A stretch of 29,417 nucleotides of DNA from a virus. The notes under the pieces are model-generated. The model ran no database searches, was not told where the DNA came from, and saw only the letters and a list, made by a program, of their open reading frames with translations. The DNA lies in the IMG/VR virus record IMGVR_UViG_3300043446_004814, positions 1 through 29,417 of that record. One strand, given 5' to 3'. Shown piece after piece: positions 5,725-8,469 of the stretch (positions are counted from its first letter, which is position 1; the number at the start of each line of letters is the position of its first letter). Both the position numbers and the translations under genes were made by a program.

Positions 5725-5912
5725 CGGGCATCCTCCGGTGGTGGTGGAAACGGCATCCAGTGCGTGACATCAATGTCGATCTGGCAGGCATTGACCCACC
5801 GCCAGATGCGACCGTCGTGGAACCCGGCCTCCACATGCCCGTCCTCGGCGGCGACGATGACATCGGTGTCCGAGTCCGGCATTTGATCCTCCACGGAAAG
5901 CCAGCCGCTCAT
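5721..5912 (-). CDS. DUF551-like protein, 63 aa
   Basis: The protein matches the pattern of DUF551: a start with W-SVEDQMPDSDTDVIVA, a middle with G-HVEAGFHDG--WRWV, and an end with THWMPFPPPPED. This family is frequent in phages and prophages, usually in early regions, with no established function. Length is typical (about 60-70 residues). It is coupled to both neighbours by ATGA overlaps. The family identification is from the motif order, not a search. Confidence 0.75.
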   Translation of the reverse strand: MSGWLSVEDQMPDSDTDVIVAAEDGHVEAGFHDGRIWRWVNACQIDIDVTHWMPFPPPPEDAR

Positions 5913-6016
5913 CGTGCCAGCCTCCCCGTCAGCGCCAGAAGCAAGACCGGCACGGCGATGATTTGAATGAACTCGAGCGCGTAGCCGAGACAGCGGAGCG
6001 TCGTATCGGCGTCCAT
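5909..6016 (-). CDS. Tiny membrane protein, 35 aa
   Basis: The frame reads MDADTTLRCLGYALEFIQ and then IIAVPVLLLALTGRLAR before a TGA. It has one hydrophobic helix (about 14-31). The start shares a base with the upstream stop (TAATG) and the end overlaps the DUF551 start as ATGA; these two couplings argue for a real gene despite its size. No function recognised. Confidence 0.55.
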   Translation of the reverse strand: MDADTTLRCLGYALEFIQIIAVPVLLLALTGRLAR

Positions 6017-6165
6017 TATTTCGCCCTCCGTTCGAAGACCACCGCGAAAGGCGTGACCTTAAATGTGCGCCAGAATTTCAGCCGCGCCTCGGCCGGCGTA
6101 GCCGCGTGGATGTAGTCGCCGAAGGGTCCGTAAATGCCGTTGGCGGTGCAGAGGTAGAGATTCAT
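6016..6165 (-). CDS. Hypothetical early phage protein, 49 aa
   Basis: From the ATG at 6165 the protein reads MNLYLCTANGIYGPFGDYIH and continues AATPAEARLKFWRTFKVTPF with a basic end. The pattern (YLCT-NGIYG--GDYIHAATPAEARLKFWRTF) looks like a compact alpha/beta fold seen in small phage proteins with an A-x-EA helix. A longer frame extends to 6423 but would overlap the whole HTH gene. The TAATG coupling at 6165 supports the short start. Function unknown. Confidence 0.6.
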   Translation of the reverse strand: MNLYLCTANGIYGPFGDYIHAATPAEARLKFWRTFKVTPFAVVFERRAK

Positions 6166-6371
6166 TAGGCAGCCCTCCTCGTAGCCATCGCGGCGGCTTT
6201 GGCTGCTTTGTTCCCTTTGGTGCAGGCCAGCGAATTCGTTACCTCTTCCAGCGACCGGAACCGCCAGTCGCGGCCAACCTTGAAGGCAGGGATCAAATTT
6301 AGGCGGGCATATTTGCGAACCGTAAAAGGCGCCAGATGGATCGCCTCGGCGAGTTGATCGACGGTGATCAT
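6165..6371 (-). CDS. HTH_17/MerR-like DNA-binding protein, possible excisionase
   Basis: The 68-residue protein begins MITVDQLAEAIHLAPFTVRKYARLNLIPAFKVGRDWRFRSLEEV, a classic excisionase-type winged HTH: helix-turn-helix at about 5-25, then the wing K-GRDWRF. Proteins of this class (Xis, AlpA) bend DNA at attachment sites or regulate early genes. It is the second gene of the leftward early operon, coupled by ATGA to the RHH regulator, and int lies about 0.6 kb away, so a recombination-directionality role is plausible. A second role as transcription factor cannot be excluded. The C-terminus is a basic Ala/Lys tail. Confidence 0.75.
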   Translation of the reverse strand: MITVDQLAEAIHLAPFTVRKYARLNLIPAFKVGRDWRFRSLEEVTNSLACTKGNKAAKAAAMATRRAA

Positions 6372-6529
6372 TTCCGCGCCCTCCGTCCATCGTTGTCCTT
6401 TTGCTTCTTGATCGCTTGGGCAATCAAACGGCTGATCGGAGTCCCTCCATTTTTCTCCGCCTTTTCCTTCAGATACTCGAAGAGGTCTGTCGGCAGGCTC
6501 AGGCTTGTTTTCACATATGCGGTTTGCAT
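6368..6529 (-). CDS. Ribbon-helix-helix regulator, first gene of early operon (Cro-like position)
   Basis: From the ATG at 6529 the protein has 53 residues: MQTAYVKTSLSLPTDLFEYL, then a long helix with EKAEKNGGTPISRLIAQAIK and a basic tail. The beta-strand KTSLSLP, helix and second helix after a Gly turn are the CopG/Arc/MetJ ribbon-helix-helix layout. An upstream extension to 6580 would read through the operator repeats and is rejected. There is no Shine-Dalgarno; the start sits right beside the GGTGCTACCG repeats. Being the first gene leftward and facing another RHH gene, it is a good Cro-like candidate. Confidence 0.8.
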   Translation of the reverse strand: MQTAYVKTSLSLPTDLFEYLKEKAEKNGGTPISRLIAQAIKKQKDNDGRRARK

Positions 6530-6564
6530 GGTGCTACCGATAGCTCCGGTGCTACCGGTGTAGC
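6530..6564. promoter_or_regulatory. Operator candidate: two GGTGCTACCG repeats over the early gene start
   Basis: GGTGCTACCG occurs at 6530-6539 and again at 6548-6557, 18 bp apart (about two helical turns). The second copy is part of an inverted repeat, GCTAC-CGGT-GTAGC (6551-6564). The cluster abuts the ATG of the leftward RHH gene and lies downstream of a TTGACA box, where a bound protein would block early transcription or translation. RHH proteins typically bind tandem or palindromic 6-8 bp sites. Confidence 0.65.
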
Positions 6565-6574
6565 AATAAAAATA

Positions 6575-6580
6575 TGTCAA
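6575..6580 (-). promoter_or_regulatory. Candidate -35 box (TTGACA) of the leftward early promoter
   Basis: The minus strand reads TTGACA at 6580-6575, a perfect sigma70 -35 hexamer, about 50 bases before the ATG of the first early gene. It is followed by an AT-rich stretch (TATTTTTATTG) and the operator repeats. No convincing -10 hexamer stands at 16-18 bp (GGTAGC is the nearest), so this is a partial match only. Confidence 0.4.
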
Positions 6581-6648
6581 TGGGGTGTTCTGCTTAGATG
6601 AAAATTTCTCTTGACTTCCGCATGGACACTAGGTTTGCGGGCGAAAAT

Positions 6649-6666
6649 AAATTTTCATGAAAATTT
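6649..6666. promoter_or_regulatory. 18-bp perfect palindrome between the divergent RHH genes
   Basis: AAATTTTCATGAAAATTT is its own reverse complement over 18 bases. The half-site GAAAATTT also occurs at 6600-6607, about 59 bp away. Its place in the centre of the divergent intergenic region makes it a likely binding site for a dimeric regulator, distinct in sequence from the GGTGCTAC repeats. Confidence 0.65.
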
Positions 6667-6673
6667 GCGCACT

Positions 6674-6696
6674 GGTGCTTTCGGTGCTACTAGTAG
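6674..6696. promoter_or_regulatory. Operator candidate: GGTGCT repeats and CTACTAGTAG palindrome over the rightward start
   Basis: GGTGCTTTC and GGTGCTACT stand in tandem at 6674 and 6683 (9-bp step). The second copy runs into the perfect 10-bp palindrome CTACTAGTAG (6687-6696). The site touches the AGGA ribosome-binding sequence (6695-6698) of the rightward RHH gene. The core is the same as at the leftward start, so one protein may control both genes. Confidence 0.6.
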
Positions 6697-6701
6697 GAAT
6701 C

Positions 6702-6941
6702 ATGAAAGAGAAAACGCACAAGAAATTGAACATCTCACTGCCTCTCGATCTGCACGCTTTTTGCGTTGAAAAGAAAAACGAGGAGCAGGCAAAAAACCCA
6801 ATGGTAACGGTGCCCATCTCCAAAATCATTTCGGAAGCCGTCAGAGAGATGAGAGATTCCGAAAAGAAAGCAAACGCCCCTGCATCGAATGCCCGACCTT
6901 CCTCTCCTACCTATCTCCGTGGAAAAACTAGGCGTCAATAA
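6702..6941 (+). CDS. Ribbon-helix-helix regulator, only plus-strand gene (repressor candidate)
   Basis: The protein has 79 residues. It starts MKEKTHKKLNISLPLDLHAFCVEKK, with the beta strand KLNISLP and a following helix, then a second helix after VTVPISKIISEAVREM: the ribbon-helix-helix layout of Arc/CopG regulators. A basic Pro/Ser-rich tail follows. I choose the ATG at 6702 because AGGA stands 4-5 bases upstream; an in-frame ATG at 6657 would encode a hydrophobic leader out of the operator DNA. It is the only gene of the window on the plus strand and faces the early operon, the usual place of a prophage repressor. Function is inferred from position and fold. Confidence 0.78.
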   Translation: MKEKTHKKLNISLPLDLHAFCVEKKNEEQAKNPMVTVPISKIISEAVREMRDSEKKANAPASNARPSSPTYLRGKTRRQ

Positions 6942-6983
6942 AAAGCCGTTTTGTGCGCAGGCTTAAATGCGCCGCCAGCTTAT

Positions 6984-8012
6984 CTAAAGCGCCCAAAAAG
7001 CCTTTGCCTCTTTTTCCCGCACCGCCCGCGCGTAGCGTTCCCGCACCATCTTGGGCGAGGAATGCCCGAGGAAGTAAGCTGTCTTGCCCGCATCCTGCCA
7101 CGCCGCGTAGTGCATCGAGGCCGATGTGTGACGAAGGCAATTCTGCGGCCACTCCTGCCATCCCATCGCGTGCGCCAGCTCCGTGCGCGCCCGCTTGATG
7201 TGATCTTCGCCCAGGCAATCCCATTTCTTCGGCATGTGCCGCCGCAAGGCCGGCAGGATCGGCACAAACCGCGAGCGAGGCACAGGGTCGGTGGATTTGA
7301 TGATAGGCACGAAGATTTCCGTCTCCTCGATGTGCTCCGGCTTGGCCCGCCCCACCTCCGAGATTCTCATCCCCGCAAAGACACCCAGAACCAGCCATGC
7401 GCGCATTCGGTCACAATCCGAAGTGAGGCCGATCAGCCTCTTTACCTGCGCCACCGTCAGCAAATGGTGGACCGGAGCCGCCTGCGGCCTCTCCGCCCGC
7501 TGCACCGGCGAGCGATCCAGGTGCTCGTATCGCACGAGCCAATTAAAAAAGAGGCGAAGATAAACAAACCCCTGTTGCCGCGTCGTGCCCACCCACTCCT
7601 TCCGCGCCAGAAACGCATCAATGTCCCGAGGCGACACCGCCGCCAGCGGCATCCGCCCCTGCGCCTCGACATAGTGCCCGATCCACCATTGCACCAACCT
7701 TGCATTGCTCCCTCGGAGTTTCGGCAACCTGAGCATCTGAAACTCCCGCCACCCCTCCGCCACCGTCTTGCCAGACCCGACAAACGACTCCGTTCCCTTC
7801 GCCTCAAGCTGCCGCAAAATCTGATCTCTGTAGGCAACCGCCCCCGCCGCCTCATCAAAAAAAGCCCGCTTCCGCTTGCCCGAAATTTTCGTCCAAACGC
7901 AAAATTTTTCCACCCCCCGGACCATCGCCCTCTGAATCGAGACCGTGTTGGTGTTGCTCCGCGTTGCTAGGGCTGTTGGCACTGTTGGCACGATGTTGGC
8001 TCGTTTAGGCAT
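6984..8012 (-). CDS. int: Tyrosine integrase
   Basis: The protein has 342 residues with the layout of phage integrases: a basic N-terminal arm-binding part (about 1-75), a SAM-like core-binding domain (about 80-175) and a catalytic domain (about 185-342). Catalytic residues seen are Arg216 in AGMRISEV, Lys239 (tentative), Arg294 in CLRHTSAS, His317 in FLGHSS and Tyr327 in RERYARA. The His of the usual HxxR box is Asn291 (NCLR). It catalyses recombination between attP and a host tRNA-Thr gene. The start is about 90 bp from the tRNA-like core, and the first 13 codons contain arm-type repeats, so integrase may bind and repress its own gene. The leading RANIVPTVPTA peptide is a by-product of those repeats. 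Confidence 0.95.
   Translation of the reverse strand: MPKRANIVPTVPTALATRSNTNTVSIQRAMVRGVEKFCVWTKISGKRKRAFFDEAAGAVAYRDQILRQLEAKGTESFVGSGKTVAEGWREFQMLRLPKLRGSNARLVQWWIGHYVEAQGRMPLAAVSPRDIDAFLARKEWVGTTRQQGFVYLRLFFNWLVRYEHLDRSPVQRAERPQAAPVHHLLTVAQVKRLIGLTSDCDRMRAWLVLGVFAGMRISEVGRAKPEHIEETEIFVPIIKSTDPVPRSRFVPILPALRRHMPKKWDCLGEDHIKRARTELAHAMGWQEWPQNCLRHTSASMHYAAWQDAGKTAYFLGHSSPKMVRERYARAVREKEAKAFWAL
7974..8002 (+). repeat. Integrase arm-type site candidate, three TGTTGGC repeats (int side)
   Basis: TGTTGGCAC occurs at 7974-7982 and 7983-7991 in perfect tandem, followed by TGTTGGCTC at 7994-8002. The 20-bp unit 7983-8002 recurs with two mismatches at 8181-8200 on the other side of the tRNA-like core, in the same orientation. 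This is the geometry of arm-type sites of tyrosine integrases. The repeats lie within the 5' coding part of int. Confidence 0.65.
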
Positions 8013-8048
8013 TTACAGCAATCAAGCGCAACGAATGGAAACATCAAC

Positions 8049-8087
8049 AAAAAACCCGCAGAAGCACAATAGAAGCGCCTCTGCGGG
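8049..8087 (-). terminator. Intrinsic terminator after the attP core, before int
   Basis: On the minus strand a 13-bp stem (8087-8075 with 8067-8055, including two G-U pairs) closes a 7-nt loop and is followed by six T. It lies downstream of the late operon and of the tRNA 3' half, so it should stop late transcription before int. After integration it would also end the restored host tRNA transcript. Confidence 0.85.
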
Positions 8088-8100
8088 CATTTAAGAAGGG

Positions 8101-8147
8101 AGCCGACGACGGGATTTGAACCCGTGACCTATCGATTACGAATCGAG
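8101..8147 (-). other. attP core: 3' half of tRNA-Thr(CGT)
   Basis: On the minus strand the sequence gives an anticodon arm with loop TTCGTAA (8142-8136, anticodon CGT), variable loop AGGTC, a full T-arm (8125-8109, with TTCAAAT loop), the acceptor 3' strand CGTCGGC (8108-8102) and discriminator T at 8101. No D-arm or 5' acceptor strand (GCCGACG) lies upstream, and the outermost anticodon-stem pair is already mismatched, so the identity to a tRNA ends in the anticodon stem. CCA is not encoded (CCC follows). A tRNA 3' half next to int, between late and early phage genes, is the expected structure of attP. Integration would restore a complete host tRNA-Thr. Confidence 0.88.
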
Positions 8148-8163
8148 AAACGGCCACTTATTT

Positions 8164-8469
8164 TCAACGCCTTGCAGAGATGTTGGCACGGCGTTGGCTC
8201 ACTGGCCGGAAAATAGCCACTCCTCGCACGCCGTTGGAGCACATGACGCGAATGATTTTTTTTTCAAAAGATTTTTGCGTGGTGAGCGTTTTCATCTGCG
8301 AATTCACCGTTGCGAGCGATTGTCCGGATTCTTCGGCAATACTGGCGAGGGTTTTCCAGCCTGCGGATTCGTAGGCGGCCAAGTTATCTTCCTTCGTGCT
8401 CGCGTAGTATTTCGCCCAGGCGGCGCTCAGATCGGGAGCAGCCAGGGATTCCCCTTTTTTCTTTCGCAT
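8164..8469 (-). CDS. Small HTH-like protein, last gene of the late operon
   Basis: From the ATG at 8469 the protein has 101 residues, starting MRKKKGESLAAPDLSAAWAKYY. The middle part (SAGWKTLASIAEESGQSLATVNSQMKTL) reads as a helix-turn-helix (TLASIAEESG-S-ATVNSQMKTL), with a following wing-like segment (IIRVMCSNGVRGVAIFRPV). The longer frame to 8628 lies within the phosphoesterase gene and starts with an Arg-rich, antisense-like peptide, so I reject it. The gene overlaps the upstream phosphoesterase by 43 nt, and its last residues (RRANISARR) are encoded by an arm-type repeat. Role unknown; it could regulate late or integration functions. Confidence 0.6.
   Translation of the reverse strand: MRKKKGESLAAPDLSAAWAKYYASTKEDNLAAYESAGWKTLASIAEESGQSLATVNSQMKTLTTQKSFEKKIIRVMCSNGVRGVAIFRPVSQRRANISARR
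8181..8200 (+). repeat. Integrase arm-type site candidate (late-gene side)
   Basis: TGTTGGCACGGCGTTGGCTC differs at two of 20 positions from the copy at 7983-8002 and has the same orientation. The two copies lie 198 bp apart and bracket the tRNA-Thr core and the terminator. This copy is inside the last codons of the HTH-like gene. Confidence 0.65.

Follow-up and report, generated by a model that had tools for sequence, protein, structure and literature searches.

A probable lysis-lysogeny switch made of two divergent ribbon-helix-helix genes and matching operators in temperate phages of Verrucomicrobiota

The window analysed here is an entire 29,417-bp IMG/VR virus record (IMGVR_UViG_3300043446_004814), possibly a fragment, in which two small ribbon-helix-helix (RHH) genes, RHHm on the minus strand and RHHp on the plus strand, diverge from a control region. 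An earlier note on this DNA had described such a pair facing each other over about 170 bp, and the distance between the two genes is indeed 172 bp. The genes and predicted features of the locus are the following:

6165 to 6371, minus strand: HTH_17 / excisionase-like gene, downstream of RHHm with a 4-bp overlap
6368 to 6529, minus strand: RHHm, RHH protein of 53 aa, first gene of the leftward early operon (the Cro position)
6530 to 6542, plus strand: predicted left operator 1, GGTGCTACCGATA, adjoining the RHHm start codon; mean identity of 99% over 23 distinct A-type sequences
6547 to 6559, plus strand: predicted left operator 2, CGGTGCTACCGGT; 94% mean identity in the 23 A-type sequences; makes GCTAC-CGGT-GTAGC together with 6560-6564
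6576 to 6649, no strand assigned: promoter-like core with GTCAATGGGG, TTGAC(A/T)-TCCGCATG and TGCGGGCGAAAAT, kept across most operator types
6674 to 6696, plus strand: predicted right operator, GGTGCTTTC-GGTGCTACT-AGTAG, overlapping the RHHp ribosome-binding region
6702 to 6941, plus strand: RHHp, RHH protein of 79 aa with a C-terminal tail, opposite RHHm (the CI position); proposed maintenance repressor
6984 to 8012, minus strand: tyrosine integrase, convergent with RHHp in the window

On the RHHm side, GGTGCTACCG occurs twice with an 18-bp step (6530-6539 and 6548-6557), the first copy touching the RHHm start codon (6529), and on the RHHp side a tandem repeat with a 9-bp step (GGTGCTTTC at 6674-6682, GGTGCTACT at 6683-6691) lies directly before the ribosome-binding region of RHHp, the ATG of which is at 6702. 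Both sets of repeats had been pointed out in the earlier note together with two palindromes; the arms of the first, GCTAC-CGGT-GTAGC at 6551-6564, do pair, although its centre is unpaired, and the second, CTACTAGTAG, is located at 6687-6696. The pattern GGTGCTACY has three copies in the 29.4-kb window, all of them inside the RHHm-RHHp region (mean of 0.09 in shuffled sequences, with 0 of 100 shuffles reaching three), and in nearly all loci searched it is limited to the switch and rare outside it. When one mismatch is allowed, CGGTGCTAC is found six times in the window, where 4.6 are expected; this count being ordinary, the weight rests on the exact copies and on their location. According to the earlier note, its reading should be abandoned if the repeats were unconserved where the RHH genes occur. 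They proved to be conserved, with 94-99% identity as against 47-78% for the spacers, the successive stretches between conserved boxes being 47%, 78%, 70%, 68% and 73% identical in the same 23 distinct A-type intergenic sequences. For the right operator, the core at 6682-6691 is 98% identical in these 23 sequences and the full stretch at 6673-6697 is 82% identical. This conservation of the A-type operators persists where RHHp identity drops to about 32-48%. A perfect 18-bp palindrome, AAATTTTCATGAAAATTT (6649-6666, between the core and the right operator), was considered as a second operator and dropped, because it is found in the closest relatives only. Note also that a search of a phage collection with positions 5900-8100 of the window returned no match.

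The boxes of the promoter-like core are 93-94% identical in the A-type sequences. The perfect TTGACA that had been noticed between the two genes is present on the minus strand at 6580-6575, but it is not the most conserved promoter-like element, which is the plus-strand TTGAC(A/T) box at 6611 (TTGACT at 6611-6616 in the window) within the longer core. Most operator types keep TTGACA-CCGCATG-TGCGGGCGAAAAT in the middle of the region; type G is without the TTGACA-CCGCA part at that place, and in type P the RHHp side is longer. Among the 19 types having it at that place, the TTGACA is separated from RHHm by 77-82 or by 89-91 bp, two clusters that lie about one helical turn apart, and TTGACWYCCGCWTG is present as a single copy in each of 90 loci and absent from the other 61 of the 151. 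A scan of 6300-7050 gave neither sigma-70-type promoters nor terminators, the cross-type alignment reveals no evident -10 box, including after the conserved TTGACA, and the predicted DNA fold of the core (z -1.92) is not decisive. Just after TTGAC, an inverted repeat CCGCA/TGCGG is found at 6618-6640 of the window and at the same place in most relatives, with the variants CGCCC/GGGCG and CCCGC/GCGGG in other types; it is perhaps a site for another dimeric regulator, and a covarying stem was considered for it, without a formal count. In many types (L025, L130, L084 and others) the palindrome GGGGTGATCACCCC, or part of it, stands to the left of the core and is unlike the type-specific operators.

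The RHHm protein scores below the Pfam cut-offs for RHH_1 (17.1 bits, cut-off 20.5) and for CopG_antitoxin (18.1 bits), and matches the PHROGs family phrog_3180, 'Arc-like repressor', with an E-value of 4.9e-6. Its Foldseek matches to NikR, Arc and omega are weak (E 0.18 and up), and a PDB sequence search returned AvtR at E 0.22. RHHp has no Pfam match and no meaningful RHH match in a PDB sequence search. AlphaFold monomer models of both proteins present an extended start followed by two helices, which is the layout of the RHH superfamily (helices 14-26 and 32-52 with pLDDT 82.5 in RHHm; helices 15-31 and 39-57 with pLDDT 78.4 in RHHp; the N-terminal strand is not formed in either model). The assignment of RHHp as a probable RHH protein rests on its profile comparison with RHHm (hhalign 96.9%), on this two-helix model and on ParD antitoxins as weak Foldseek hits (ParD2, E 1.9). 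For relatives of operator types G, I, I2 and M, RHHp was assigned to the RHH proteins partly by eye, and the members of G, I and M that were scanned with Pfam gave sub-cut-off or no matches. At the end of RHHm, the stop codon overlaps the next start (ATGA) and the C-terminal codons contain GGAGGG, the Shine-Dalgarno sequence of the following gene; the stop codon lies within ATGA in 19 of 20 type representatives, most of which also have a GGAGG-like Shine-Dalgarno sequence in the last RHHm codons.

Beyond the excisionase-like gene, the minus strand encodes Sak4, an exonuclease, a single-strand binding protein and DnaB. The claim that RHHp is the sole plus-strand gene agrees with the genes identified by domain or profile matches, which are a subset of the ORFs and otherwise all lie on the minus strand. 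RHHp shares its strand with the integrase and with small genes for membrane- or lipoprotein-like products in types C, D and F, as would be expected of the lysogeny side. Neither a toxin nor a ParA-type match was obtained among ten window proteins scanned, no toxin gene stands in the same operon, the neighbours being the HTH_17 gene and the integrase, and no antirepressor (ant-like) gene was found among the ten proteins, a set that covers the small early ORFs in part. In 19 records, which are possibly incomplete, there is no HTH_3 match over the cut-off and no S24 peptidase; sub-threshold HTH_3 matches occur in nine of them. Around the integrase we would like to point out some further observations. 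Just upstream of it, 8101-8171 of the window (minus strand) has a weak Rfam tRNA match (31 bits, cut-off 29; none by ARAGORN), and a relative (L022) carries a tRNA-Thr at 5841-5915, in the corresponding place. Downstream of the integrase, C or G runs follow a AACAATTTA motif in L018 (about 7074-7091) and at the ends of L019, L020 and L024; these last three contigs stop at such a run or close to it, and in L024 a HigA-like helix-turn-helix reading frame follows the integrase before the contig end.

Viral contigs scanned with RHHp, the integrase, RHHm and their alignments yielded 16, 11, 17, 61, 12 and 50 loci, many of which are overlapping views of the same contigs. All RHHm copies with enough DNA have a divergent RHHp (one contig, L037/L055, ends too early), which amounts to 52 distinct sets with start-to-start distances of 157-179, within a search window of 150-185 imposed by the script. 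The integrase provides a sample chosen independently of the RHH genes: it comprises 50 loci, 47 of them with an integrase at least 51% identical, 11 of which end before the region, and by the analyst's reading of individual loci the pair is present in 34 of the 36 loci having the region. The three loci with distant integrases have no RHH pair. In one exception among the 36 (L135, 1010-2516), the HTH_17 gene is preceded by two RHH genes in tandem and a divergent partner is lacking, the core and a GGTGCAATGCACC palindrome still being present there; the other (L024) has no RHH pair in the 1.3 kb available after the integrase.

That these phages infect Verrucomicrobiota is suggested by, and rests on, occurrences of the integrase and of RHHm in metagenome-assembled genomes (MAGs) and genomes. 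A genome scan with the integrase found relatives in two MAGs, named Chthoniobacter flavus and Terrimicrobiaceae, and RHHm is present in three of 213 genomes of the order of those MAGs, one of them (L157) with A-like operators on both sides; a genome scan with the RHHm alignment returned 63 stretches, none of which was confirmed. The MAG contig with the A-like switch (L157, L160, L161) was considered as proof of a lysogen and set aside: by the analyst's reading of its ORFs, all of its 56.8 kb looks like phage, and integration is therefore not proven by it. Another genome of the same order (L158, 9235-9695) has a compact RHH pair with about 107 bp between the starts and GGTATTACT-like sites, apparently without the conserved core.

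Ten or more operator types occur among the related phages. Types B, E and N have GGTATTACC-like operators, type D has GATCATATC in a 9-bp tandem, F and O share TTACTACC, and the motifs of the others are CCAACAATT (G), GGTGCAC (I), ATCGGTA (K), ATTATTGGCAAT (L) and TTGTGCACAA (M). Within each type, the 40 bp next to RHHm were compared with the 40 bp next to RHHp, and the best match of the two stretches was taken as the score. With representatives and supergroups chosen by hand after the sequences had been inspected, as were the ribbon registers used below, matched sides scored 9.72 and mismatched sides 6.83 for 20 types, and 10.45 and 6.47, respectively, for 10 supergroups, 0 of 100,000 permutations reaching the observed value in either case. 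Reruns with 100 random representatives, which here and in the ribbon and helical-body comparisons below vary the representative within a supergroup only, gave a worst P of 0.001, and control comparisons of the left and of the right side with the centre were null. Types K and P are the weakest, ranking second and fourth of ten in their own rows, and the weakest matched types score 7.0-8.0. An operator type common to both sides of the region is thus well supported by these comparisons and, judged by sequence alone, one operator type stands at both putative promoters, as in CI/Cro systems.

The operators are replaced together with parts of both genes. Two near-identical phages of types F and D (L027 and L028) have long flanks that are 90-100% identical on both sides, the last compared block falling off, and between them an island of about 470 bp (RHHm head, both operators and RHHp head) that is mostly 28-60% identical, with 80-82% in the central core. 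A similar island separates types H and L (L122 and L120). RHHp tails are common to types with unlike heads, as in H and L, with 27% identity of the heads and 97% of the tails, and in D and F (33% and 97%), and in 133 of 176 between-group pairs the tails resemble each other more closely than the heads do. Such islands, and shared tails under unlike heads, indicate that heads and operators have been replaced together. The tail codons of 15 pairs have 120 third-position changes and 129 at the first and second positions, with mixed dN/dS values that exceed 1 in some pairs; this pattern suggests that the shared tails reflect common descent more than strong selection. The exchanged cassette would take in both operators and the heads of RHHm and RHHp, leaving in place the RHHp tail and the end of RHHm with the ribosome-binding site of the next gene, and this exchangeable unit probably sets which viruses recognise each other.

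The residues of the N-terminal ribbon bear on whether both proteins read the same sites. At the positions that we take, from known RHH structures, to face the DNA, in a register set by hand, RHHm and RHHp have 2.16 of 3 residues identical in matched pairs and 1.20 in mismatched pairs (P at most 0.0005), whereas the buried ribbon residues have no within-pair likeness by identity (median P 0.44) and a weak one by BLOSUM62 (median P 0.07). Partners of one type also resemble each other more in their helical bodies (median P 0.001), so that a common origin of both heads may account for some of the ribbon match. A Mantel test of operators against ribbons is confounded and does not discriminate, because the buried residues (r 0.50) correlate as strongly as the exposed ones (r 0.52). 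We consider it likely that both RHHm and RHHp bind the shared sites. A distinctly less probable arrangement is that only one of them binds all sites, acting as autorepressor and as repressor of its neighbour, with the partner serving, for example, as a co-repressor in mixed dimers or as an accessory early regulator. A single binder would suffice for the left-right matching of operators, the descent shared by the heads can produce the ribbon likeness, and mixed dimers are conceivable between two proteins close enough for profile alignment; what speaks against this arrangement is that the within-pair match is found in the DNA-facing and not in the buried ribbon residues, and that the cassette swaps both heads together.

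The lambda-type CI/Cro and the TP901-1 CI/MOR switches consist of divergent HTH repressors with shared operators, the Cro-like gene heading the early operon, and in the lambda type the repressor and its operators are exchanged jointly as the immunity region. The locus described here resembles them in its divergent repressor genes, one of which heads the early operon, and differs in that the proteins are RHH proteins of 53 and 79 aa without the S24 cleavage domain, so that induction must differ from the lambda type. As HTH_3 (over the cut-off) and S24 are absent from the 19 records, the system would be CI/Cro-like in its working, outside that protein family.

The closest parallel according to the earlier note was Arc/Mnt of phage P22, and the layout of P22 immI is indeed the nearest one, with two small divergent RHH repressor genes of a temperate phage (mnt at 37994-38245, minus strand; arc at 38336-38497, plus strand; 90 bp between them) that flank a short control region. 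The parallel does not extend to their standing, since the P22 pair is secondary to a separate HTH c2/cro switch and immI governs the antirepressor, while in the 19 records no HTH_3 over the cut-off and no S24 was found that would point to such a locus beside the divergent pair. Arc and Mnt have two of three ribbon residues in common and read different operators despite this likeness; the left-right score of P22 is 7.0, as compared to 5.64 (sd 0.95) for shuffles. Two papers describe Arc and Mnt as proteins that repress ant during lytic and lysogenic growth (PMC7549136, PMC2629481). By the P22 precedent, in which the same divergent layout stands beside a separate c2/cro locus, our pair could govern an antirepressor or exclusion gene while an unrecognised repressor makes the main decision. 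We regard this as improbable, because RHHm is the first gene of the replication/recombination operon and has the excisionase-like gene and the integrase as neighbours, because HTH_3 over the cut-off and S24 are each found in 0 of the 19 records, and because P22 is without clearly matching flanking operators. An RHH antitoxin or plasmid-partition module is more improbable still and was rejected for want of the partner genes: RHHm has its sub-threshold CopG_antitoxin score, the folds resemble ParD, omega and NikR, and RHH partition proteins bind tandem repeats, but here two divergent RHH genes adjoin an HTH_17/excisionase-like gene and an integrase, with no toxin or ParA-type partner in the operon or among the ten proteins scanned. 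Single RHH proteins also take part in the control of other viruses. Dormancy of the archaeal virus SSV1 is maintained by the small RHH protein F55, whose binding sites are short repeats found at a number of promoters including its own; it is a single RHH repressor, for which the passages on F55 describe no divergent RHH partner (PMC9608457). In SP-beta, YosL is an Arc-type RHH protein of the prophage control circuit that acts beside the master repressor MrpR and does not constitute a divergent RHH pair (PMC10516654).

With a probability of roughly three in four, we therefore read the locus as the lysis-lysogeny switch of a temperate Verrucomicrobiota phage, in which two paralogous RHH repressors replace the HTH repressors, share their operators and belong to an exchangeable immunity cassette. 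The non-cI/Cro switch proposed in the earlier note gains support, as other operator types change the sequence and yet both sides still match, and it fits the position of the genes, RHHm standing first in the early operon and overlapping the excisionase-like gene, and RHHp lying beside the integrase. With HTH_3 over the cut-off and S24 absent in 19 records, the RHH pair is the foremost candidate for making the main decision, within which RHHp is a better candidate than RHHm for the lysogeny repressor and RHHm would be the Cro-like lytic partner. RHHp, CI-like, would occupy the operators at the RHHm start cooperatively, in the form of dimers that recognise 9-bp units, and thereby shut off the early operon (RHHm, the excisionase-like gene, Sak4, the exonuclease, the single-strand binding protein and DnaB), which would maintain lysogeny. 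RHHm, first made in lytic growth, would bind the same operator type at the RHHp start and silence RHHp, making repression mutual. Each protein would also limit itself, because each meets sites at its own start. Both promoters would lie within the constant core, around which operators and DNA-binding heads vary jointly; as these change together, each type would represent one immunity specificity. Since an S24 domain is lacking, an antirepressor, proteolysis or some other signal would have to bring about induction, and the RHHp tail might, speculatively, provide a handle for it.

On a balance that we see as tipped slightly in its favour, these phages represent an undescribed class of phage immunity, with an RHH-only main switch, two paralogues, the same operators flanking a constant promoter core, diversification through a single cassette and at least ten specificities in one phage group; a literature search limited to open-licence papers found no description of a shared-operator RHH pair or of an exchangeable RHH immunity cassette. 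Among the open-licence papers no control circuit of a temperate Verrucomicrobiota phage was found either, so that this one may be the first to be outlined. If true, the logic of CI/Cro would be independent of the helix-turn-helix, a second fold with tandem short operators doing the same job. The family would then constitute a natural experiment, with many head/operator pairs around one core in phages that are otherwise nearly identical, which would allow direct tests of the code by which RHH proteins recognise DNA and of how immunity groups evolve.
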